Origin: Halanaerobiales bacterium
GTDB taxonomy: Bacteria; Bacillota_F; Halanaerobiia; DY22613
DNA: 12,343 nt
Assembly: GCA_023128035.1 (NCBI GenBank)
Contig: JAGMES010000119.1
Span: 1-12,343 of the forward strand
Direction of reading: 5' to 3'
This document shows, piece after piece, positions 1,390-12,107 of the stretch. The notes beneath the pieces were generated by a model. The model saw only the letters and a program-made list of their open reading frames with translations. It did no database searches and had not been told where the DNA came from. Within the stretch, counting starts at the first letter, position 1. Every line of letters begins with the position of its first letter. The translations under genes and the position numbers were made by a program.

Positions 1390-2415
1390 ATGGTTGGCCC
1401 TGATCAATTGAAAGAAGTATTGGGAAATAATTATTCTATGCAAGTTTTTGGAATAGTCCCTTTAGATCGGGATTTATATAGGATAGAGACAGATCAAGGT
1501 TTTAAAAGATTGGTACGGGTTCAAAGAAAAGCGTCTAGAATTCGATTTTCTCATTCGGTTATAGAGGCATTGAAAGATCAGGGAGAAGAAAAGTTACCAG
1601 TTTTAACATTGACAAAAACAGATGAGCCATATTTTAAGTTAGAGAATAGTAATTGGATTGTACTAGATTGGGTGAATGGACGTAAACCTGATTTGAATAA
1701 GATACAGGATATTGAACAAATCACCAGAGATTTAGCTAAGTTACACAAAAATATGAATGGAGTTCTACCCAAAGGAGGTAGTAAGGTCAGAGAGAAATGG
1801 GATCATTGGTCTAAAGATGTACTACACGATTTAAAGTTTTTTAAATTGTTTATAGCGAAAATTGAAAAAGAGAGCTCTTACTCTGACTTTGAAGAAATGA
1901 TTCTAAAGAATAATGAAATGATTATCCAACGTTTACAACAGGCCAAAAGTTTAGCTTACTCAAAAAAATGTCAAAAACTAATTAAAAAAGAGCGTAAAGA
2001 ACTAGGGATGATTTATCAGAGAATAAATGAAAAAGATCTTTTATTTGGGTTTGATGGGCGTATTTATTTTATTAATCCATTATGGATTAGTTATGATGTT
2101 AGAGTTAAAGATTTGGGAAAATGGATGGAAAGATTGATAAAAAAACGGCCTTCTTTAGGTAAAGATATTGATCAGGTTGTCACATGGTATGAAGAGGAGA
2201 GAGAATTGAATCTGGGAGAGAAAAACTGGTTACTTGCCTTTATAATATACCCAACAAAAATTATGAAGGTCATTGAAAGATATTATTTACATAAAAAAAG
2301 TTGGCCTGAAGAAGGCTTTGTCCGAAAATTACGTAAAGCTCTGAAAGTTGCTGAAAAGGAGATGGAAGTATATGAGAGATTGTTGATAAAATTCGAAGGA
2401 AAGGTGGAGTTGTGA
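1390..2415 (+). CDS. Degenerate CotS-family protein, predicted pseudokinase
   Basis: A 341-aa paralogue of the flanking CotS-like genes. It shares their layout, including the N-lobe pattern RIRF-hSV.AL at 50-61 (compare RLRF and CLRF in the others) and the C-terminal KSWPEEGFVRKLRKAL region. All three residues that make the fold a phosphotransferase are gone. The beta-3 lysine is V42 within RLVRVQ. The catalytic HxDxxxxN loop is replaced by a stretch around 207-217 (IYQRINEKDLL) with neither catalytic Asp nor Asn. The metal-binding DFD is NPL (229-231). The reading frame is intact over full length, so this is a maintained non-catalytic protein rather than a broken gene. ATG start with GAGGAGGTGG just upstream. 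The stop overlaps the next ATG by one base (TGATG), giving translational coupling. A scaffold or regulatory role beside the intact paralogue is an inference. Confidence 0.8.
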   Translation: MVGPDQLKEVLGNNYSMQVFGIVPLDRDLYRIETDQGFKRLVRVQRKASRIRFSHSVIEALKDQGEEKLPVLTLTKTDEPYFKLENSNWIVLDWVNGRKPDLNKIQDIEQITRDLAKLHKNMNGVLPKGGSKVREKWDHWSKDVLHDLKFFKLFIAKIEKESSYSDFEEMILKNNEMIIQRLQQAKSLAYSKKCQKLIKKERKELGMIYQRINEKDLLFGFDGRIYFINPLWISYDVRVKDLGKWMERLIKKRPSLGKDIDQVVTWYEEERELNLGEKNWLLAFIIYPTKIMKVIERYYLHKKSWPEEGFVRKLRKALKVAEKEMEVYERLLIKFEGKVEL

Positions 2416-3431
2416 TGCAACGGCCAGAAGTCAAGCAGATTCTTGAACTTTGGGGAATTGAAATGTATAAAGTACGGTTAGTCAGAAATATCTATAAAAT
2501 CTGGACAGATCAGGGTATTTATTGTTTAAAACCTGTTACAGAACGGGGAAGTTGTTTACGTTTTTTTGATTCAGTTTTAAGACATGTACAAAGTAGAGAT
2601 TTTCAAGTTCAAGCACATTATGAGTACACACAGAATGGAGAACCTTTTGGGGTTTTTAACGGGAATCGTTGGATCTTAACTCCCTGGATTGATGGAAAAG
2701 AGATTAAATATCGATCTTTTAAAGAGGTTATTGAAGGTGCAAGAGTTTTGGCAAAATTTCATCAAGCAGCAGAAGGATATGTACCTGAAATAGGAATTAA
2801 AGTTAAAGACAAACAAGGTAAATGGCCAGATAAATTAGTTCGCAGAGTTGGAGATATAAAGGATTACATCCAAACAGCTCAAGCGGAGGACTCAGATTTT
2901 GATCGTTATTTTTTAAAATATGCTGATTGGATTCTAAAATCAGCAGAAGAAACTTTAAAACTAATTTGTAATTCGAATTATGATCAAAAAGTTGAAGATA
3001 GTTTAGAGCAAGTTCAAATCTGTCATGGTGACCCCGCAAGTCGGAACTTTGTTATTGATAAAAAAGGGCAGATTCATATGATTGATTTTGATTCTATGAA
3101 ATTTGATCTACCAGTAGTGGATTTGTGGCGTTTTTTACGGAGAGTATTAAACAGAAATCAGTGGAATATGAGATTGGTTACAAAAATTATTGATGGGTAT
3201 AACAGTGAGCGAAGATTAGACCAGGATGATTATCGACTGTTAGCAATTTTTCTAGAATTTCCCGAAAAAATTTGGAGAGTGTTACATCATTACTATGAAA
3301 GACGTGGGAGAGAGAATTGGTCACAATATAGCTCTTTAAGGAAATTACTTAAATTGCTTGCTCAAGTTGAAGAGAGAGAAAAATTTTTAGCTGAGTTTAG
3401 GAATGCGTATTTAAAAACATTTTTGGAATAA
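2415..3431 (+). CDS. CotS-family spore coat protein, APH/kinase-like fold, intact motifs
   Basis: A 338-aa CotS-family protein. Kinase landmarks are complete: a lysine in CLKP (K39), the HGDPASRN catalytic loop at 204-211 and IDFD at 223-226, followed by the VDLWRFLRR helix typical of APH-like folds. I chose the ATG at 2415 because GGAG (2406-2409) is 5 bases away, whereas the in-frame GTG at 2412 would be only 2 bases from it. It is coupled to the preceding pseudokinase by a one-base overlap and followed 8 bases later by a phosphoesterase gene. Known members (CotS, CotI, YutH) are coat-associated and made in the mother cell. Their biochemical substrates are largely unknown, so the reaction is not assigned here. 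Confidence 0.88.
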   Translation: MQRPEVKQILELWGIEMYKVRLVRNIYKIWTDQGIYCLKPVTERGSCLRFFDSVLRHVQSRDFQVQAHYEYTQNGEPFGVFNGNRWILTPWIDGKEIKYRSFKEVIEGARVLAKFHQAAEGYVPEIGIKVKDKQGKWPDKLVRRVGDIKDYIQTAQAEDSDFDRYFLKYADWILKSAEETLKLICNSNYDQKVEDSLEQVQICHGDPASRNFVIDKKGQIHMIDFDSMKFDLPVVDLWRFLRRVLNRNQWNMRLVTKIIDGYNSERRLDQDDYRLLAIFLEFPEKIWRVLHHYYERRGRENWSQYSSLRKLLKLLAQVEEREKFLAEFRNAYLKTFLE

Positions 3432-3439
3432 GGTAAGGG

Positions 3440-4027
3440 GTGAGTAAGAAGATGCGTATTGGAGTGATAGCTGATACTCATATTCCAGATAAATTTCATG
3501 TATTAAGTTCACGGATTAAAGAGGCATTAGATGGAGTTGATATGATTTTACACTGTGGAGATCTGGTTCAAATGGAGATTTTGGATGAGTTACGAGAGAT
3601 TGCTCCTGTAGAAGCAATTGCGGGCAATCATGATTTGAATCGAAATCTAGATCTTCCTAGAAAAAGAGTTCTTGATATCTCTGGATACCGAATTGGGATG
3701 ATTCATGGTGATGAATTAAATGGTCTTCATGTAAATAAAACTCAATTAAAAGAGTGGCTTTATCAGGTATTGGTAGAACCTTTTATTTATGAAGATGGGG
3801 TCGATTTAATCGTTTTTGGTCATTATCATCAACCATTAATTGAGTCATTTAGGGTAGAATTTTTACCAAAAAATAATTCTTTTAAGAAACTGAAACAGGA
3901 TGTTCTAATTTTCAATCCGGGGATGCCTACTAGAAATCGGCATCTGTCCAGTATAGGTTTTATCGAGTTAAACAAGGATGAAATAAAGGTCGAATTAAAA
4001 ATTTTTACATATCCTAGAGAGTTGTAG
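3440..4027 (+). CDS. YfcE/MJ0936-family metallophosphoesterase
   Basis: A 195-aa calcineurin-like phosphoesterase with the full two-metal motif set: D12-x-H14 (IADTH), G40-D41 (HCGD), G62-N63-H64-D65, H89 (MIHGD) and G127-H-x-H130 (GHYH). Family members hydrolyse phosphodiesters or phosphomonoesters with Mn2+ or Ni2+ as cofactor; the physiological substrate is generally not known. There is a family-atypical stretch around 92-120 before the GHYH motif. It is predicted cytoplasmic, with no signal peptide. Start chosen as GTG at 3440 (AAGG 6 bases upstream); an ATG at 3452 giving MRIGVIADTH is a real alternative, with AGGGG 11 bases upstream. It sits in the CotS operon, so it may act on the product or substrate of the kinase-like neighbours during sporulation (inference). 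Confidence 0.88.
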   Translation: MSKKMRIGVIADTHIPDKFHVLSSRIKEALDGVDMILHCGDLVQMEILDELREIAPVEAIAGNHDLNRNLDLPRKRVLDISGYRIGMIHGDELNGLHVNKTQLKEWLYQVLVEPFIYEDGVDLIVFGHYHQPLIESFRVEFLPKNNSFKKLKQDVLIFNPGMPTRNRHLSSIGFIELNKDEIKVELKIFTYPREL

Positions 4028-4452: not shown

Positions 4453-4492
4453 GATGATAGGTGATGGATCGAAAAAAAAAGGGGGTTTTAAT

Positions 4493-5407
4493 GTGAAAAA
4501 AATACTTATTGCTTTATTTAGTTTACTGCTTATTTCAGGTTGTTCTTTTATTAACAAAGATGTGGATAATGTAGGTCAAAGTATCTCTGAAATTAAAAAT
4601 ATTCAGGCTGCTAAAGAAGAAGCTCATGAAACCTTTGCTACAGCTCATGAGGAGTTTTTTGATGGTGTTCCTTCTATTGTTGACCGAGGAAGTGATGTAG
4701 AATCACTTTCTGTTGAAGAGTGGGGAGTTAAGGAATACATAATTGGTTATGCTTTTGAAGCTTATAATACTGGTAATGTAACAAAATTAGAAAACTTTCT
4801 TAAAGAACAGGGATTGTATGAAAAGTATAGAGCGGTTGTTGAGAAATATGACTTAGAAGAACAGCAGAATGTGTTGGACATGCGTCCTAGCACAATATCT
4901 ACTCAAAGTTTTCCGATTAATGATTTTGATAATTATTTAGATGGAGATGTTTTTGTGTGTTATGGTGGTAGCTCAAGTGCTAAGTTAATTGGATTTTTCA
5001 TTCCTGGAACATGGAAACATGCTGGATTTTTAGATACCCAGGCTCCAGATATGAATGCACCAATTTTAACTGCTTCTGATGAAACTACTTCTGGTTTTTG
5101 TGTTGGATATGAGACTAAACTAAAATGGTCTGAAAAAACTGCTGTTTCAGTGTGGAGACCATATGGAAGAACTTATACAAAAGCTAGAGCAGCTTTGAAT
5201 TATAGTAAACAGTTTGTTGGTAAACCTTATAGTGTATTTACTTCTAGAAGTAGTAATGATGACTGGTACTGTTCAAAAGTTGTTTATAGAGGATGGCTCT
5301 CACAAGGAATTAATCTTGAAGATGAAGGCTGGCTTGATACTTGGGTAACTCCTTCAAATCTAGCTGAAGATGGTATGACTTATTGGGTAGGGGGAGACTA
5401 TAATTAA
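4493..5407 (+). CDS. Lipoprotein with YiiX/YaeF-type permuted papain-like (NlpC/P60-related) domain
   Basis: A 304-aa exported protein. The N-terminus MKKILIALFSLLLISGC is a lipoprotein signal with lipobox LISGC, giving lipidation at C17. Residues about 20-135 are helical and charged and probably form a stalk. The C-terminal half fits the circularly permuted papain-like fold: a strand with LDGDVFVCYGG near 150, a candidate histidine in TWKHAGF (H176), and a candidate catalytic cysteine in WYCSKVVYRGW (C260), preceded by the usual GKPY. Family members are proposed amidases or peptidases acting on cell-wall peptides or lipid-linked amides. Start: GTG at 4493, with AAGGGGG 7 bases upstream. The frame extends in-phase to an ATG at 4454, which would add 13 residues before the signal. 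It has its own sigma-A promoter and is followed by a large inverted repeat rather than a T-tract terminator. Confidence 0.75.
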   Translation: MKKILIALFSLLLISGCSFINKDVDNVGQSISEIKNIQAAKEEAHETFATAHEEFFDGVPSIVDRGSDVESLSVEEWGVKEYIIGYAFEAYNTGNVTKLENFLKEQGLYEKYRAVVEKYDLEEQQNVLDMRPSTISTQSFPINDFDNYLDGDVFVCYGGSSSAKLIGFFIPGTWKHAGFLDTQAPDMNAPILTASDETTSGFCVGYETKLKWSEKTAVSVWRPYGRTYTKARAALNYSKQFVGKPYSVFTSRSSNDDWYCSKVVYRGWLSQGINLEDEGWLDTWVTPSNLAEDGMTYWVGGDYN

Positions 5408-6595: not shown

Positions 6596-6647
6596 TGGTA
6601 ATTTTTTATATCCTTATGATTTTTAAAAATTAATTTGTTAAAATCTT

Positions 6648-6696
6648 AACTGTCTTGAATCTTCAGAAACCTATTGGAGAGTAGAGACAGTTTTTT
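6648..6696 (+). terminator. Terminator with bipartite stem after the second lipoprotein gene
   Basis: Outer stem AACTGTCT (6648-6655) with AGACAGTT (6885-type pairing at 6685-6692), followed by a T-run to 6696. Inside it, TCTTCA pairs with TGGAGA around a 9-base loop, with a small asymmetric internal loop between the two stems. It lies 52 bases after the lipoprotein stop and 100 bases before the ECF gene, so it could end the former or act as an attenuator for the latter. Confidence 0.65.
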
Positions 6697-6796
6697 GTGT
6701 GGAATTTTATTTTTTATAAAATAATTTTATACTAGTAATAAAGGAATTTTATAGACGGTGTCGAAATACTATTTTAATAGATAGGAGGAGGATATT

Positions 6797-7366
6797 ATGA
6801 ATAAAAAAATTTCTACACAAGCTCTTGTTATTGCTTCACTATGTGTCGTAATTAACATTATTGGAGGCTATCTGGTAACAATGGTAAAAATCCCACTACT
6901 TTTTTTGGATGCTATTGGTACTATTTTTTCTGCAGTTATTCTGGGACCATGGGTTGGAGGTTTAGTTGGTGTAGTAACTAATCTAGTTTTAGGTATTATT
7001 CAGGGGCCAACAGCAATTCCTTTTGGTATTGTTAGTCTTGCGATTGGTGTGATAGTTGGTTTTATAGCAAAAAAAAGGAATTTCAGTTTAGGAACTGCTA
7101 TCATTACAGGTTTAATTATATCTGTTGTTGCACCATTGATAGGGACACCAATTGCTGTAGCTATATTTGGAGGATTAACAGGTGGTGGTACAGATATTTT
7201 TGTTATTTGGTTACTAAAATCTGGTCAAAAAATATTTACAGCGGCTTTTTTACCCCGAATTACTGGTAACTTAGTAGATAAAATTGGAAGTTGTATTATA
7301 GTTTATTATCTTGTTAAAGCCTTACCTATGGAATTAATGAAAGGAAAGAATAGTTGTGAAGCGTAA
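6797..7366 (+). CDS. ECF transporter S component (substrate-specificity subunit), substrate unknown
   Basis: A 189-aa, very hydrophobic protein with about five to six membrane segments (roughly 9-30, 35-52, 54-68, 74-91, 97-126 and 150-176). It contains the GPWVGGLVGVVTN stretch, which is typical of energy-coupling-factor S subunits that bind a vitamin-like small molecule in the membrane. No EcfA or EcfT gene is nearby, so it would have to share a housekeeping energising module. From memory it resembles the family NCBI names CD3073, found next to CD3072-type TudS-related proteins; here the next gene is exactly such a protein, overlapping by 11 bases. ATG start with a strong GGAGGAGG upstream. 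It is the first gene of a six-gene operon. The 100 bases upstream are AT-rich with only weak promoter candidates, e.g. TAAAAT at 6717-6722. Confidence 0.82.
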   Translation: MNKKISTQALVIASLCVVINIIGGYLVTMVKIPLLFLDAIGTIFSAVILGPWVGGLVGVVTNLVLGIIQGPTAIPFGIVSLAIGVIVGFIAKKRNFSLGTAIITGLIISVVAPLIGTPIAVAIFGGLTGGGTDIFVIWLLKSGQKIFTAAFLPRITGNLVDKIGSCIIVYYLVKALPMELMKGKNSCEA

Positions 7367-7838
7367 AAATAAGATTGTTCTTCTTGCTCATTGTATTCTA
7401 AATCAAAATAGTGTAATCAAAGGATGGGCCAGAGCCAGAGGTGCCTTCCCCACAGTCATAGAGTTTTTATTAAGAGAAGGAATTGGAATAGTTCAACTTC
7501 CCTGTCCTGAACAGCGTTTTTTGGGTTTGCAGAGGCCACCTATGACTGTAGAAGAATATGATACTTTAGATTATCGTAATCACTGCCAAAAACTATTAAA
7601 TGGATTGATGGAAGAATTGCTAAATTACAGGGAACATGGACTTGAATTAGTTGGGGTGATTGGAATAGGGAATAGTCCTTCTTGTTGTCCGAATCAGGGA
7701 ATTTTCTTTATAGAACTACAGCAACAATTGGAGGATAATGGATTTCAGATAAATGTAATTTCATTACCTCCAGATCATCAGGAGGATGAGATGAACGAAA
7801 ATTTTATAAGTAATTTAAGCCAGTTAAAGTCGAGGTGA
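7356..7838 (+). CDS. TudS-related (DUF523-type) putative desulfidase
   Basis: A 160-aa cytoplasmic protein related to TudS, a [4Fe-4S] enzyme that removes sulfur from thiouracil. The conserved cysteines are visible in their family contexts: C13 (AHCILNQNS), C50 (QLPCPEQR) and C110/C111 (NSPSCCPNQG). Three such cysteines hold the cluster in TudS, leaving the fourth iron free to bind sulfur. The sequence looks like the family called CD3072 TudS-related (name recalled, not searched). GTG start at 7356 inside the end of the ECF gene, with AAAGGAAAG upstream; an 11-base overlap indicates translational coupling. Its pairing with the ECF S component suggests that the imported compound carries sulfur that is removed after entry (inference). 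Confidence 0.82.
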   Translation: MKRKNKIVLLAHCILNQNSVIKGWARARGAFPTVIEFLLREGIGIVQLPCPEQRFLGLQRPPMTVEEYDTLDYRNHCQKLLNGLMEELLNYREHGLELVGVIGIGNSPSCCPNQGIFFIELQQQLEDNGFQINVISLPPDHQEDEMNENFISNLSQLKSR

Positions 7839-7842
7839 TTGT

Positions 7843-8478
7843 GTGTTAATAGATATTCATGTACATACATCGAAATATTCATCATGCAGCAGAATAGATT
7901 TTGAGGAAGCGATTATCCAGGCTAAAGGAATTGGACTTGATGGTATTTGTATTACTGACCATGAAAGTAATGGGATTATTGATGAAGCAAATGAACTATC
8001 AAAAAAACACAACTTTTTAGTAATTGTTGGCATGGAGTTATTAACCTATGAGGGCGATTTATTGGTTTTTGGCCTTGAAGAAGTTCCGCAGGCACATATA
8101 GCTGGGAAATCACATGCTAATGAATTAATTTCTTTAATCAATCAAAAAGGGGGAATTGCACTAAGTGCTCATCCTTTTAGGAACAATGGTCGAGGAATGG
8201 GAGAATTCATTCGACAAATAGATAATCTATCAGGAATTGAAGTTTTTAATGGTAATACAACTTTTGAAAATAATAGTCGAGCTTATCATCTGGGTCTTGA
8301 ATTAGGTATCCCATGTTTAGGTGGAAGTGATGCCCATAGAATCGAAAGAATAGGAAAATATGCGACTTCGTTTTCAGATGGAATTAGGGATTTGAAAGAC
8401 TTTATAAATGCTGTTAAGGAAGATGAATTTTTTCCTGTAGAATATAATAACAATAGGTTTGAGGAGGTCAAATTATGA
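7843..8478 (+). CDS. PHP-domain metal-dependent phosphoesterase
   Basis: A 211-aa PHP-family protein with the metal-binding residues in order: H6-x-H8 (DIHVHTS), D39-H40 (ITDHES), E65 (VGMEL), H110 (SAHPF), and D163 and H165 (GSDAH). It has the length of a bare PHP domain, shorter than TrpH/RNase AM proteins. PHP enzymes hydrolyse phosphoesters (nucleotides, histidinol phosphate, cyclic phosphates); the substrate here is unknown. Predicted cytoplasmic. GTG start at 7843, 4 bases after GAGGTGA, which overlaps the previous stop. The stop overlaps the next start as ATGA. Its place between a desulfidase and an importer suggests that it dephosphorylates the imported compound or a derivative of it (inference). 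Confidence 0.88.
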   Translation: MLIDIHVHTSKYSSCSRIDFEEAIIQAKGIGLDGICITDHESNGIIDEANELSKKHNFLVIVGMELLTYEGDLLVFGLEEVPQAHIAGKSHANELISLINQKGGIALSAHPFRNNGRGMGEFIRQIDNLSGIEVFNGNTTFENNSRAYHLGLELGIPCLGGSDAHRIERIGKYATSFSDGIRDLKDFINAVKEDEFFPVEYNNNRFEEVKL

Positions 8479-9485
8479 AAAAAAGTTTGGTATTATTAGC
8501 GATTATGTTATCAGTAGTTTTGGTAGGAACAGTATTTGCAACAAATATTTCTAAAAATTCTTTGGAAGGCACAAAGATTAAAGTATTTGCTGCATATGGT
8601 GGAAAAGATGTGATTTTTTCTGAGTTTGAAAAAGATACAGGTGTTAAAGTAGAATACTTAGATATGTCTTCAGGTGAAGTTTTAGCAAGAATTAGAGCAG
8701 AAAAGGGTAAACCACTCGGAGATATATGGTTTGGTGGTGGAGTGGATAGTTTTATTGCTGCAAAAAGAGATGGGTTGTTAGAGCAATATGTATCTAAAGA
8801 GGCTGAAAATATTCCTGCAAAGTACAGAGATAAAGATGGATATTGGACTGGAGTCTCTTTAGTAACTGTTAGTTTTATTGTTAATACAGATATTTGTAAA
8901 GAATTGGGTATTGAAGTACCCCAAAGATGGGTCGATCTGATAAAACCTGAGTTTAAAGATGAGATATTAATGTCTAATCCTTCTATTTCTGGTACTGCCT
9001 ATACTATTTTAACAGGCATTTTGCAATCTATGGGTGAAGAAGAAGGTTGGGCGTTCTTAGAAAAATTGAACAACAATATTGCCTATTATGCAAAGAGGGG
9101 TAGTGAACCTCCGAAGAAGGCTGCTTTAGGTGAAGTAATGGTAGGGTTAGCTCCTGATACTGGTGAAGGGTTAAAAGCGCAAGGGTATCCAATAGTTTCT
9201 GTGTTTCCTAAAGATGGTACTCCATGGTGGCCATCTCCAGTAGCAATATTAAAAGGTGCAAAGAATTTAGAAGGAGCTAAAGCTTTTGTGGATTGGTGTT
9301 TGTCAGAAAAAGGTCAGAATATTTTAAGAGATAATTGTATAAGAGTTCCTACTAGAATAGGAATAGAACCTCCAAAAGTATTAGAATCGATTAAAGATGC
9401 AAAATTACAAAAGATCGATTTTGAGATTGCTGGGGAAGCGAGGGATTTGATTGTTGAAGAATGGAAACAAAGATTTTATAACTAA
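8475..9485 (+). CDS. ABC transporter solute-binding protein (AfuA/FbpA-like family)
   Basis: A 336-aa secreted binding protein. Residues 1-22 are a Sec signal with a likely signal peptidase I site after VFA; there is no lipobox cysteine. The mature part has family 1/6 features: KVFAAYGGKDVIFSEFEKDTG near the start, then GDIWFGGGVDSFIAAKRDGLL around 82-102, DGYWTGVSL, a PPKKAALGE-VMVGLAPDTGE stretch, and PWWPSPVAILKGAKN at about 254-268, where related proteins have the 'EGTGYEIGG-ALIKGAKN' segment. This family includes ferric-iron, 2-aminoethylphosphonate/phosphoglycerate and thiamine-type binders. No tyrosine pair diagnostic of FbpA is evident in the binding region, so iron is not secure. ATG overlaps the PHP stop, with GAGGAGGT upstream. 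Confidence 0.85.
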   Translation: MKKSLVLLAIMLSVVLVGTVFATNISKNSLEGTKIKVFAAYGGKDVIFSEFEKDTGVKVEYLDMSSGEVLARIRAEKGKPLGDIWFGGGVDSFIAAKRDGLLEQYVSKEAENIPAKYRDKDGYWTGVSLVTVSFIVNTDICKELGIEVPQRWVDLIKPEFKDEILMSNPSISGTAYTILTGILQSMGEEEGWAFLEKLNNNIAYYAKRGSEPPKKAALGEVMVGLAPDTGEGLKAQGYPIVSVFPKDGTPWWPSPVAILKGAKNLEGAKAFVDWCLSEKGQNILRDNCIRVPTRIGIEPPKVLESIKDAKLQKIDFEIAGEARDLIVEEWKQRFYN

Positions 9486-11178
9486 AGTGTTTGGGGTATC
9501 TCGAAGAGATACCCCAATTTATGCTATCTTTGAAAAAGTCATTTATATAGTTGTCATTGGCGGTGTTTTGATTTTTACTCTATGGCCTATAGTAGCAGTA
9601 TTGCTTAAAAGTATTTTTAATAATGGATCATTGGATTTTAGTAGTTACAAGCAATTATTCACACAAAACCGAGAGTTATTATTAAATAGTCTTTTTGTGG
9701 CTGTACTAACTACTTTTTTTGCTTTAGTTTTAGGTTTGAGTATAGCTTTATATGTGACCCATTCCAATTTAAAGGGGAAAAAAATTGTTTTTGCAATTTT
9801 GCTTTTAACAATGATTTCACCACCTTTTGTTTCATCACTATCTTATATTATGTTATTTGGAAGAAGAGGTTTAATTATATATAAACTACTTGGCCTGAAG
9901 CTAAACCCTTATGGTTGGCACGGTATAGTCTTAATGCAGTCTATATCTCATGCCTCTCTAGCTGCATTATTAATAATTGGTGTTTTGAGAGGGATTGATA
10001 AAAGCATTGAAGCATCTTCACTTGATTTGGGAGCCAGTAGCTTTAAAACTTTAATGAAAGTAACAATTCCAATGGCAAAACCTGGTATTATTGCAGCAGC
10101 ATTAATTGTTTTTGTTAAGTCATTATCTGATTTTGGAACTCCTATTATTATAGGAGGTGGCTTTAGTGTATTGGCTACGGAAGCCTATCTTAATGTAATT
10201 GGATTGTATAATCTTTCGAAAGCTTCAGCTATGAGTACTTTACTGCTTTTGCCAGCTCTGATCGTCTTCTTTGTTTATCGACGGGTAATGAGTAAATCAC
10301 AATTTTTTACCAGTAAAACGGTCCAATCTGGGGATAGTAGTTTGAAATTACCTGGATGGCTTAAAATAATTTTAGCATCAATAACGTGGAGTTTTCTTAT
10401 TTTTGAGATCTTAAAGTATTCAACGATTTTTTGGGGAGCTTTTGCAAAAACCTGGGGAGTGAATTATTCTTTCAGCTTGATACATGTAAAAAACTTAAAT
10501 TATGTAAAATTAGAAAGTTTTCTTCGAAGTTTAAAGTATTCATTTATTGCAGGTTTTGTTGGGAGTATTATTGGTCTTTTTCTATCTTATATTCTTGAAA
10601 GAAAGAAGATCCCTGGAAGCCGGGTATTAGATTTTGTGGCTACTCTACCATTTATGATCCCTGGTACTTTTTTTGGAATTGGTTACATACTTGCTTTTCA
10701 TAACAAACCATTAGCATTAACTGGTACTGCATTTATTGTAGTAGTAAACTGTATTTATCGTCAATTACCTTTAGGAACGAAAACAGGTGCAGCAGTCTTA
10801 AGTCAGTTAAACCCTGATATTGAGTCTAGCGCAAAGGATTTAGGGGCCAGTGAATTTCATGTATTTAAAGATATCGTTCTTCCAAGCTTAAAACCTGCTT
10901 TTTTACTTAGTTTTATTAATACTTTTACATCGACAATGACAACGATTGGGGCTATCATATTTCTGATTTCACCAGGTTCAAAGGTTGCTACTGTAGAAAT
11001 GTTTGATGCTATTAAGAATGGTGATATTGGAATCGGAGCAGTATTTGCGAATCTTATTATTATCTCAGTATTAATTATTAACATTAGTTTTGCATGGTTT
11101 ATCTTAAAAAAGAAAAATTCAACTTTTTTTGTGGGTAGGGGGAAAACAAATGTATCTGCAATTGAAACAATTAACTAA
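9451..11178 (+). CDS. ABC transporter permease, fused two-domain (FbpB/ThiP-like)
   Basis: A permease of up to 575 aa with about 12 membrane helices forming two tandem permease domains. Each carries an EAA loop that docks the ATPase: EASSLDLGASSFKTLMKVTIP (approx. 187-207) and ESSAKDLGASEFHVFKDIVLP (approx. 458-478). The DFGTPIIIGGG segment is typical of the ferric-iron/thiamine/phosphonate permease group. The start is uncertain. No ATG exists in frame. TTG 9451 (AGGGA 5 bases upstream) overlaps the binding-protein gene by 35 bases, while GTG 9487, one base after the preceding stop, has no clear ribosome site. A perfect hairpin (9492-9516) lies within the first codons. The gene overlaps the ATPase gene by 29 bases. 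Confidence 0.9.
   Translation: MLKNGNKDFITKVFGVSRRDTPIYAIFEKVIYIVVIGGVLIFTLWPIVAVLLKSIFNNGSLDFSSYKQLFTQNRELLLNSLFVAVLTTFFALVLGLSIALYVTHSNLKGKKIVFAILLLTMISPPFVSSLSYIMLFGRRGLIIYKLLGLKLNPYGWHGIVLMQSISHASLAALLIIGVLRGIDKSIEASSLDLGASSFKTLMKVTIPMAKPGIIAAALIVFVKSLSDFGTPIIIGGGFSVLATEAYLNVIGLYNLSKASAMSTLLLLPALIVFFVYRRVMSKSQFFTSKTVQSGDSSLKLPGWLKIILASITWSFLIFEILKYSTIFWGAFAKTWGVNYSFSLIHVKNLNYVKLESFLRSLKYSFIAGFVGSIIGLFLSYILERKKIPGSRVLDFVATLPFMIPGTFFGIGYILAFHNKPLALTGTAFIVVVNCIYRQLPLGTKTGAAVLSQLNPDIESSAKDLGASEFHVFKDIVLPSLKPAFLLSFINTFTSTMTTIGAIIFLISPGSKVATVEMFDAIKNGDIGIGAVFANLIIISVLIINISFAWFILKKKNSTFFVGRGKTNVSAIETIN
9492..9516 (+). promoter_or_regulatory. Perfect 11-bp intercistronic hairpin between binding-protein and permease genes
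   Basis: TGGGGTATCTC (9492-9502) pairs perfectly with GAGATACCCCA (9506-9516) around a GAA loop, starting 7 bases after the stop of the binding-protein gene. It is followed by ATTTATGC rather than a T-run, so it is not a regular terminator. Hairpins in this position in importer operons commonly protect the 3' end of the binding-protein mRNA and lower expression of the membrane genes; that role is inferred here. Confidence 0.7.
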
Positions 11179-12097
11179 AAATTTTGGTTCAAATAATGTC
11201 GTTCATAATTTAAATCTGGATGTCAATCAAGGAGAATTGGTTTGTATTCTAGGGCCTAGTGGATGTGGAAAAACGACTACATTAAAAATGATTGGAGGAT
11301 TTTTATCTCCTTCTAGTGGTTCGATTATTCTTGAAAGTATAGACATAACGAGTTATCCTCCTAATCAGCGACCTACTGCAACAGTGTTTCAAAGCTATGC
11401 CTTATTTCCACATATGAATGTTATCAAAAATGTAGTTTACGGTTTGAAATTTAAGGGAATCAGTAAAAAAGAAGCTTTATATCAGGGAGAGAAGATGTTG
11501 GAGATGGTAGGGTTAGAACAATATCGTAATCAAGAGATTGCACAACTAAGTGGAGGGGAGCAGCAGAGGGTTGCTTTAGCAAGAGCATTAGTAATGAATC
11601 CAAAAGTTTTGTTATTAGATGAACCTTTGAGTAATTTGGATGCTAAACTTAGAATTAAAATGAGAAAAGAAATTAAGGATTTGCAAACCTATTTGGATAT
11701 TACAATGTTATACGTAACCCATGATCAAGAAGAAGCCCTTAGTATTTCAGATCGTATAGTTGTGATGAATAATGGTGAAATAGCCCAAATTGGACCTGCA
11801 AAGGAGATTTACCAGTATCCACAGAATCACTTTGTGGCTGATTTTATTGGAAGGGTCAACATAGTAAAAAAACAAAATGGTGAGGAGAGGTTTGTTAGAC
11901 CAGAACATGTAAATATTATAGAAAACAGCGGAGATGCTAGGGGGAAGATTATTCAAAAACAGTTTATGGGATCATTCACTACATACTTTTTAAATATCAA
12001 TGAGACTATTATTCAAGCAGATATTTTGAGTAGAGATGATAAAGAGTGGCAGTTAGGTGAAGAGGTTTCTGTTTCATTTTTTGAAAGCGCTTTATGA
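11150..12097 (+). CDS. ABC transporter ATP-binding protein (FbpC/PotA-like)
   Basis: A 315-aa ATPase of the importer. It has Walker A GPSGCGKT (35-42), a Q-loop in VFQSYALFPHM (Q81), signature LSGGE (133-137), Walker B LLLDE (154-158), a D-loop SNLD and a switch histidine in YVTHDQEEALS (H191). After the nucleotide-binding domain (to about 235) comes a short TOBE-like tail with RPEHVNII, the usual place of substrate or regulatory control. The group includes FbpC, PotA and ThiQ-like proteins, so it does not decide the substrate. I chose ATG 11150 because AGGGGG lies 7 bases upstream; an in-frame TTG at 11129 lacks such a site. It overlaps the permease end and is the last gene of the operon, whose terminator includes its stop codon. 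Confidence 0.92.
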   Translation: MYLQLKQLTKNFGSNNVVHNLNLDVNQGELVCILGPSGCGKTTTLKMIGGFLSPSSGSIILESIDITSYPPNQRPTATVFQSYALFPHMNVIKNVVYGLKFKGISKKEALYQGEKMLEMVGLEQYRNQEIAQLSGGEQQRVALARALVMNPKVLLLDEPLSNLDAKLRIKMRKEIKDLQTYLDITMLYVTHDQEEALSISDRIVVMNNGEIAQIGPAKEIYQYPQNHFVADFIGRVNIVKKQNGEERFVRPEHVNIIENSGDARGKIIQKQFMGSFTTYFLNINETIIQADILSRDDKEWQLGEEVSVSFFESAL

Positions 12098-12107
12098 AGC
12101 GCTTTTT
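12084..12107 (+). terminator. Rho-independent terminator overlapping the ATPase stop codon
   Basis: AAAGCGCTT (12084-12092) pairs with AAGCGCTTT (12097-12105) around the loop TATG, followed by a short T-run. The TGA stop (12095-12097) begins in the loop, so the last codons of the ATPase form the 5' arm. Confidence 0.9.

Follow-up and report, generated by a model that had tools for sequence, protein, structure and literature searches.

What could bring two unrelated uptake systems, a desulfidase-like enzyme and a phosphoesterase together in a single operon? This question is raised by a stretch of 12,343 nucleotides (hereafter the window), which covers positions 1 to 12,343 of contig JAGMES010000119.1 of a Halanaerobiales bacterium (assembly GCA_023128035.1). 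Its positions 6797-12097 hold six open reading frames (ORFs) on one strand (+), and ORF calling on the window confirmed that they make up an operon. The genes encode, in this order, the S component of an energy-coupling factor (ECF) transporter, a relative of the desulfidase TudS, a PHP-family phosphoesterase, and the binding protein, permease and ATPase of an ATP-binding cassette (ABC) importer. This operon is a junction of two recurring modules, namely the S subunit/TudS pair (genes 1 and 2) and a PHP-ABC cassette (genes 3 to 6). We read it, with slightly better than even confidence, as an operon for acquiring a chalcogen, most likely selenium. It would most likely serve the acquisition of a phosphorylated compound that bears selenium (or sulfur), and the case for selenium is backed by the association of these gene families with selenium genes and by the expression of their relatives.

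Two recurring modules joined in one operon

Both members of the curated ECF_S_CD3073/TudS_rel_CD3072 pair are found above cut-off, overlapping by 11 bases: the S component (6797..7366, 189 aa) scores 234.9 bits against NF045596 (cut-off 180) and the TudS-related protein (7356..7838, 160 aa) 157.4 bits against NF045597 (cut-off 130). Unlike in the curated pair, no dedicated EcfA/EcfT energising module is encoded in the operon, as judged from the ORFs and a family scan, and the genes that come next are those of PHP and of a binding-protein-dependent ABC importer. The TudS-related protein has all six TudS catalytic residues, that is the cluster cysteines Cys13, Cys50 and Cys110 and the catalytic Glu52, Ser107 and Ser109. 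Among 34 aligned rows, C50, E52, S107 and C110 are invariant, C13 is kept in 33 (one gap), and position 109 is a serine in 24 and a threonine in 10. The protein shares the fold of the solved TudS (DUF523; PDB 6z92, 6z96), a thiouracil/4-thio-UMP (uridine monophosphate) desulfidase with which it has 17% identity; its PDB relatives were found by fold only, none being detected by sequence profile at E 0.1. It has no Pfam match, PF04463 included; the identical protein P0001 carries a precomputed PF27735, and some relatives carry PF04463. In contrast with canonical TudS, its relatives are linked to importers and selenium genes. It is predicted, from its sequence, to be a chalcogen-removing enzyme, probably a [4Fe-4S] de-chalcogenase. 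We found no literature match to CD3072, CD3073 or the TudS-related name in open-licence PubMed Central. An in-frame TGA in the TudS gene of one locus (L133) was considered as a selenocysteine codon and rejected, since the corresponding residue of a near-identical relative is Trp and not Cys.

The third gene (7843..8478, 211 aa) encodes a PHP-family metal phosphoesterase, with scores above gathering for PF02811 (34.5 bits, cut-off 26.4) and PHP_C/PF13263 (53.8, cut-off 21.3) and with D4/H6/H8, D39/H40, E65, H110 and D163/H165 invariant in 26 aligned rows. In an NCBIfam scan it matches none of the curated PHP families that have a named function, remaining below the cut-offs of CehA/McbA (69 vs 80), NF041661 (43.5 vs 500) and NF041577 (31 vs 400). 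At residue 15 (7885-7887), a little past the HxH motif and at a place where one might look for a metal ligand, the window protein has Cys and most relatives have Asp (34 Asp, 3 Cys and 2 unread among 39 counted).

The importer comprises a periplasmic-type substrate-binding protein (8475..9485, 336 aa; SBP_bac_6, 119.2 bits, cut-off 24.6), a fused permease with two BPD_transp_1 stretches (9451..11178, 575 aa, exact start uncertain; 75.5 bits, cut-off 26.4) and an ABC ATPase with a TOBE_2 domain (11150..12097, 315 aa; ABC_tran, 123.2 bits, cut-off 25). The listed start of the last ORF is a TTG at 11129, and the ATG at 11150 is preferred because a purine-rich stretch precedes it. The best NCBIfam models of all three proteins are those of the putative 2-aminoethylphosphonate (2-AEP) importer PhnS2-U2-T2 (TIGR03261/03262/03265), but binding protein, permease and ATPase all fall below the curated cut-offs (214/393, 251.6/593.25 and 345.5/457.7, respectively). 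The nearest structures of the binding protein are 8x1a and 4r73, which bind glucose 6-phosphate (G6P), and 6wce, which binds pyridoxal phosphate (PLP), and such ligand-bound G6P and PLP binders rank ahead of every ferric-binding protein in the sequence, Foldseek and VIA-align comparisons. The protein has an AfuA-like phosphate cradle, in which 6 of the 7 AfuA phosphate contacts are identical and Thr60 of AfuA is replaced by Gly89, while none of the 3 sugar contacts is kept (His205, Asp206 and Glu229 becoming Thr229, Gly230 and Trp252). With the phosphate contacts kept and the sugar contacts lost, a phosphorylated, perhaps aromatic, ligand would be likelier than iron or hexose phosphate. The window importer differs from the hexose-phosphate importer AfuABC and the pyridoxal-phosphate importer P5PAB by these replaced sugar contacts and by having PHP, S subunit and TudS genes in its operon.

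TudS relatives were found 432 times in genome contigs, and the best 80 loci were analysed together with 21 loci from an even Bacillota sample, 3 from further Bacilli and 4 from methanogens. These 108 loci are 105 distinct ones, three being the same place counted twice, and 75 of the 108 span 9 kb on both sides. Of the 80 best loci, 70 have an S subunit at most 3.5 kb away from TudS; so do 14/21 of the even sample and 2/3 of the further Bacilli, and none of the 4 methanogen loci does. PHP, on the other hand, was found within 9 kb of TudS in 0 of the 108 other TudS loci. PHP proteins above 200 bits occur in 18 of 398 Bacillota genomes and 20 of 100 Synergistota genomes; three matches of 140-147 bits, all in genomes that have SelD, were left out of the first PHP sample. 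A binding protein of the window type adjoins PHP in 12 of the 18 Bacillota loci, together with genes for the permease and ATPase where these could be read, and on opposite strands in three of them (L114, L117, L124); adding genomes G003 and G012 brings this adjacency to 13/20 loci. In Synergistota, the order PHP, binding protein, permease is found in 7/20 loci, with the ATPase too in 6 of these.

The two modules are also connected in other ways. Two Acidaminobacter loci (L048, L077) show ECF-S, TudS, binding protein, permease and ATPase, without PHP, and two Methanococcus-like loci (L164, L166) hold two CD3073-type S subunits each next to binding protein, permease and ATPase. The S subunits of L166 score 185.6 (cut-off 180) and 114.7 bits; a small protein of L164 is weakly CbiQ-like (21.8 bits, cut-off 25) and its L166 counterpart has no match. 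A further locus, L165, has a single weak S subunit beside a window-type importer. PHP and TudS moreover share genomes: TudS is present in 6 of the 18 PHP genomes vs 15 of 380 others (Fisher, 1.3e-4). TudS also stands beside amino-acid-type ABC genes (L129, L130, L137; SBP_bac_3 in L129), a sugar-type set (L136; SBP_bac_8) and a NitT/TauT-type set (L156, L168; NMT1 in L156), the unscanned members having been assigned by eye. As one enzyme pairs with interchangeable importer types, ECF and several ABC, this suggests that the importers bring in the substrate of the TudS-type enzyme.

A preliminary description of this DNA, made from its letters only, had already recognised a six-gene unit with short overlaps or gaps and a closing terminator, an S subunit without its energising module, its recurring pairing with TudS, the Fe-S-type cysteines and the relation to thiouracil desulfurase, and a PHP metal phosphoesterase as gene 3, all of which the ORF calls, the folded terminator stem, the family scores, the conserved residues and the locus counts bear out. 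Its label of a complete FbpABC-type importer is true of the superfamily, and all three parts are present, but it is misleading about the ligand. As for PHP and ABC genes being kept beside the S subunit/TudS pair, the outcome is mixed: this does not hold for PHP, whereas the cassette recurs alone and its importer type is found with CD3073 S subunits in Methanococcus-like genomes and Acidaminobacter.

Association of both modules with selenium genes

SelD was found above cut-off in 262 of 398 Bacillota, 67 of 200 Bacilli-class and 74 of 100 Synergistota genomes. Against this background, it is present in 18/18 Bacillota genomes with PHP (>200 bits) vs 244/380 others (one-sided p 4e-4) and in 20/20 Synergistota genomes with PHP vs 54/80 others (one-sided p 1e-3), so that the pooled PHP genomes have SelD in 38/38 cases vs 65% of the others. 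For TudS (at least 100 bits), SelD is present in 18/21 genomes vs 244/377 others in Bacillota (p 0.035) and in 5/5 vs 61/194 in the Bacilli class (p 0.004), a test that leaves out the centre genome G411; one genome, G256, sits in both TudS samples. Stratified tests gave 2e-5 for PHP and 1.5e-3 for TudS. Among genomes chosen from TudS loci, 35/42 have SelD, as do 20/26 of the Bacilli among them.

Gene order points in the same direction. We counted SelA, SelB, SelD, YedF and YedE as core selenium genes within about 20 kb around TudS. The reference genes came partly from five of the loci themselves (L050, L154, L155, L159, L160), which are self-matching and were re-scanned with NCBIfam; L154, L155, L159 and L160 are longer stretches of L127, L145, L065 and L124, not extra loci. 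In 10 of 14 loci from Enterococcus, Tetragenococcus and Vagococcus (nine Enterococcus, one Tetragenococcus), a one-strand run of SelD, YedF, SelB, a cysteine desulfurase-like gene, SelA, TudS and ECF-S was found, and SelD, YedF, SelB and SelA of L050 are above NCBIfam cut-offs. The other four loci of this group show no core selenium gene in the stretch, and all four genomes have SelD. Overall, a core selenium gene lies near TudS in 12 of the 80 best loci; outside the enterococcal group it does so in 2/66, with YedF in L051 (179 vs 110) and YedE in L065. The corresponding counts are 4/21 in the even Bacillota sample (L127, L144, L145, L146; SelD of the last three confirmed against NCBIfam) and 0/3 in the further Bacilli.

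In L154, a one-strand run starts with a double-cubane reductase, ECF-S, TudS, a C_GCAxxG protein, a membrane protein with weak likeness to TDT and YedF, and continues with another double-cubane reductase, an ABC set, an activase, SelA, SelB, a cysteine desulfurase-like gene, SelD and Se_S_carrier (DUF3343). L155 and L146 combine SelD with a selenium-metabolism LysR regulator (276 and 263 vs 250). For the PHP cassette, gene order gives a weak signal: in L160 it is followed by YedF (222 vs 110), a double-cubane reductase (518 vs 350) and an activase; a 2-hydroxyglutaryl-CoA dehydratase subunit and an activase are also listed as functionally associated with YedE/YedF in the Slackia data of PMC5322559. 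A split YedE precedes TudS in Methanocaldococcus (L159) and in L199, each half in L159 being below the whole-protein cut-off. We also noted by eye a TtcA-like tRNA thiolation gene a few genes away from ECF-S/TudS in L145 and L146, on the stretch that also carries the LysR regulator and SelD.

A link to selenium at the level of expression comes from Methanococcus. In the class of G438, 7 of 31 genomes, one of them G645 (M. maripaludis), each encode one orthologue of the window binding protein, at 46-48% identity. L164/L166 also hold orthologues of the permease and ATPase, and the binding protein of L166 is 96% identical to that of G645. These two loci match MMJJ_09760-09790 of M. maripaludis in gene content and order, as equated by annotation and order and not by accession. 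Shared between the annotated operon and the window-related ones are the PgtC-like binding protein, the PhnU permease and the 'cobalt transport protein', and the related genomes carry CD3073-type S subunits alongside. According to the expression values given in PMC11097638, selenium depletion raised MMJJ_09780 (PgtC-like binding protein) by 5.88 log2, MMJJ_09770 (PhnU) by 4.13 and MMJJ_09790 (cobalt transport protein) by 4.18, next to YedE (5.28) and the amino-acid permease YecS, MMJJ_04340 (3.90). In L197/L198, TudS heads a binding protein and an amino-acid permease; G650 has no other match than this permease, G644 has one more, and it is plausible that this TudS-linked permease is MMJJ_04340. 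In G645 (L165, L201), TudS and the TudS-linked permease are both broken, and the CbiQ-like gene and the better-scoring CD3073 S subunit are missing from the ABC operon, the AfuA-like ABC set remaining; there, S subunit and TudS have decayed together while the ABC set stayed.

Proposed function and its alternatives

The gene identities, the conserved active-site residues, the phosphate cradle and the linkage of the families to selenium genes were established from sequence, fold or context. On this basis, the AfuA-like ABC importer would bring in a small seleno- (or thio-) compound that carries a phosphate, which the PHP enzyme would remove. The CD3073 S subunit would import the already dephosphorylated form, together with an ECF module encoded elsewhere, and the TudS-related enzyme would abstract the chalcogen on its [4Fe-4S] cluster, setting free selenide (or sulfide) to supply SelD. 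One candidate that would fit all parts is a selenonucleotide released by tRNA turnover, for instance 2-seleno-UMP. We infer the order of these steps, the identity of the compound and the validity of the scheme for the window's own host. The salvage of a thiolated and phosphorylated molecule had been proposed beforehand: its succession of import, dephosphorylation and dechalcogenation fits the TudS residues and the phosphate-monoester-binding relatives, but the association with selenium genes had been missed, and because of that association the likely purpose moves from pyrimidine salvage to selenium (chalcogen) acquisition. The thiamine-like compound suggested at the same time as a candidate substrate is unsupported (TIGR01254, 42 bits, cut-off 93).

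A bolder version, which we find rather unlikely, would be a dedicated high-affinity selenium salvage, in which phosphorylated selenonucleosides (such as 2-selenouridine monophosphates lost from tRNA) are imported, PHP strips the phosphate and the TudS-type [4Fe-4S] enzyme draws selenide from the base for SelD; the CD3073 ECF and AfuA-like ABC systems would then be the long-missing selenium transporters, common to bacteria and methanogens. Statements in PMC11097638 and PMC9312934 have it that selenium has no known specific or high-affinity transport system, and, judging by title and the start of the abstract, we found no paper in open-licence PubMed Central in which selenium was tied to a TudS-like desulfidase, a PHP phosphoesterase or an ECF S component. 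Two widespread uncharacterised family sets (CD3073/CD3072, and PHP with an AfuA-like ABC importer) are now linked to it through bacterial and archaeal gene order, SelD co-occurrence in three genome samples and a published selenium-starvation response. The predicted ligand class, phosphorylated seleno-compounds, is absent from the selenium species that the relevant part of PMC11097638 lists for its deletion tests. If the link is true, there are now named genes with which selenium uptake can be tested.

Several observations weigh against a role in selenium acquisition. Neither phylogeny nor genome size is taken into account in the co-occurrence tests, and SelD is absent in 7/42 and 3/21 TudS genomes. 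Of 40 PHP loci, a single one (L160) has core selenium genes nearby, and no selenium gene was recognised in the 12.3 kb window, most, not all, of whose ORFs were scanned. The Methanococcus-like operons differ from the window in that they show no PHP gene in the stretch and have TudS elsewhere in the genome. As for the deletion of MMJJ_09760-90, the results reported in PMC11097638 include no clear transport defect; it raised the reporter with selenocystine only and not with the other species listed, an effect of 18- to 60-fold across mutants, at low absolute values, that is common to three other transporter deletions.

The same parts could instead serve a salvage of thio-nucleobases or thio-nucleotides, whose purpose would be the recovery of uracil or sulfur and not of selenium. 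We take this to be possible, if on the unlikely side. Canonical TudS prefers 4-thio-UMP, as stated in PMC10611767, and its catalytic residues are kept in the window protein. In five of the seven SelD-less genomes (loci L019, L023, L026, L032 and L040), genes for two EcfA-like ATPases and for an EcfT-like protein (a CbiQ in L023, 119 vs 25) come right after ECF-S and TudS; since the pair and its EcfA/EcfT set persist there without SelD, a selenium-free role is likely in these genomes, and the pair would also work without selenoprotein synthesis. Such loci are perhaps a sulfur-only version. The enrichment in SelD and the linkage to selD, selA, selB, yedF and yedE nevertheless argue against thio-salvage, as does the induction of the matching Methanococcus operon by selenium starvation in the published values, and no pyrimidine-salvage gene was seen among the neighbour clusters viewed, which were inspected by eye and not by systematic search.

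It is also conceivable, and in our opinion clearly unlikely, that two unrelated modules are merely carried on one transcript, the pair for chalcogen salvage and the PHP-ABC cassette for an unrelated phosphorylated metabolite such as a sugar phosphate, a PLP-like compound or a phosphonate. The absence of PHP near TudS in the 108 other TudS loci, the recurrence of PHP-ABC alone in Bacillota and Synergistota, the G6P and PLP bound by the nearest solved proteins and the scarcity of selenium genes near PHP would agree with this. It fits less well with the fact that Acidaminobacter and Methanococcus-like genomes have this importer type next to CD3073-type S subunits, with the replaced sugar-contact residues and the scores under the 2-AEP cut-offs, and with the presence of SelD in all 38 PHP genomes sampled. 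An FbpABC-type ferric iron importer with incidental neighbours is hardly credible, given the ranking of G6P and PLP binders above all ferric-binding proteins and the conserved phosphate contacts. Chalcogen acquisition, most likely of selenium, remains the explanation that we prefer.

Signals and neighbouring genes of the window

The junctions of the operon are, in gene order, an 11-base overlap, a 4-base gap and overlaps of 4, 35 and 29 bases. An intrinsic-terminator-like stem-loop with a 10-pair stem and a T-rich tail (12083..12106, +; refolded) stands at its end, in a region that has 6 terminator-like sites vs 2.6 +/- 2.0 in shuffled sequence. Upstream, a stem-loop with a T-run (6648..6692, +; 6640-6720 folds at -19.3 kcal/mol), with no Rfam match nearby, may be the terminator of the preceding gene or an attenuator. 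A strong 12-pair stem-loop (9491..9517, +; -21.0 kcal/mol for 9480-9530) lies directly past the stop codon of the binding protein, within the start of the permease frame, and could stabilise the binding-protein mRNA. Riboswitch control was considered and rejected, the window giving two weak miRNA-model matches only, neither at the operon, and so was viral carriage, with 7 pattern matches and 1 relative in IMG/VR.

Further upstream, three genes (51-1082, -; 1390-2415, +; 2412-3431, +) encode proteins that resemble, by eye, CotS/YsxE spore-coat kinases, which suggests that the host is a spore-forming Firmicute; the only one scanned (1390-2412) has no Pfam match. They are followed by a YfcE-family calcineurin-like phosphodiesterase (3440-4027; TIGR00040, 87 bits, cut-off 56) and a lipoprotein-like YaeF/YiiX C92 permuted papain-like amidase (4454-5407; PF05708, 35.5 bits, cut-off 27).

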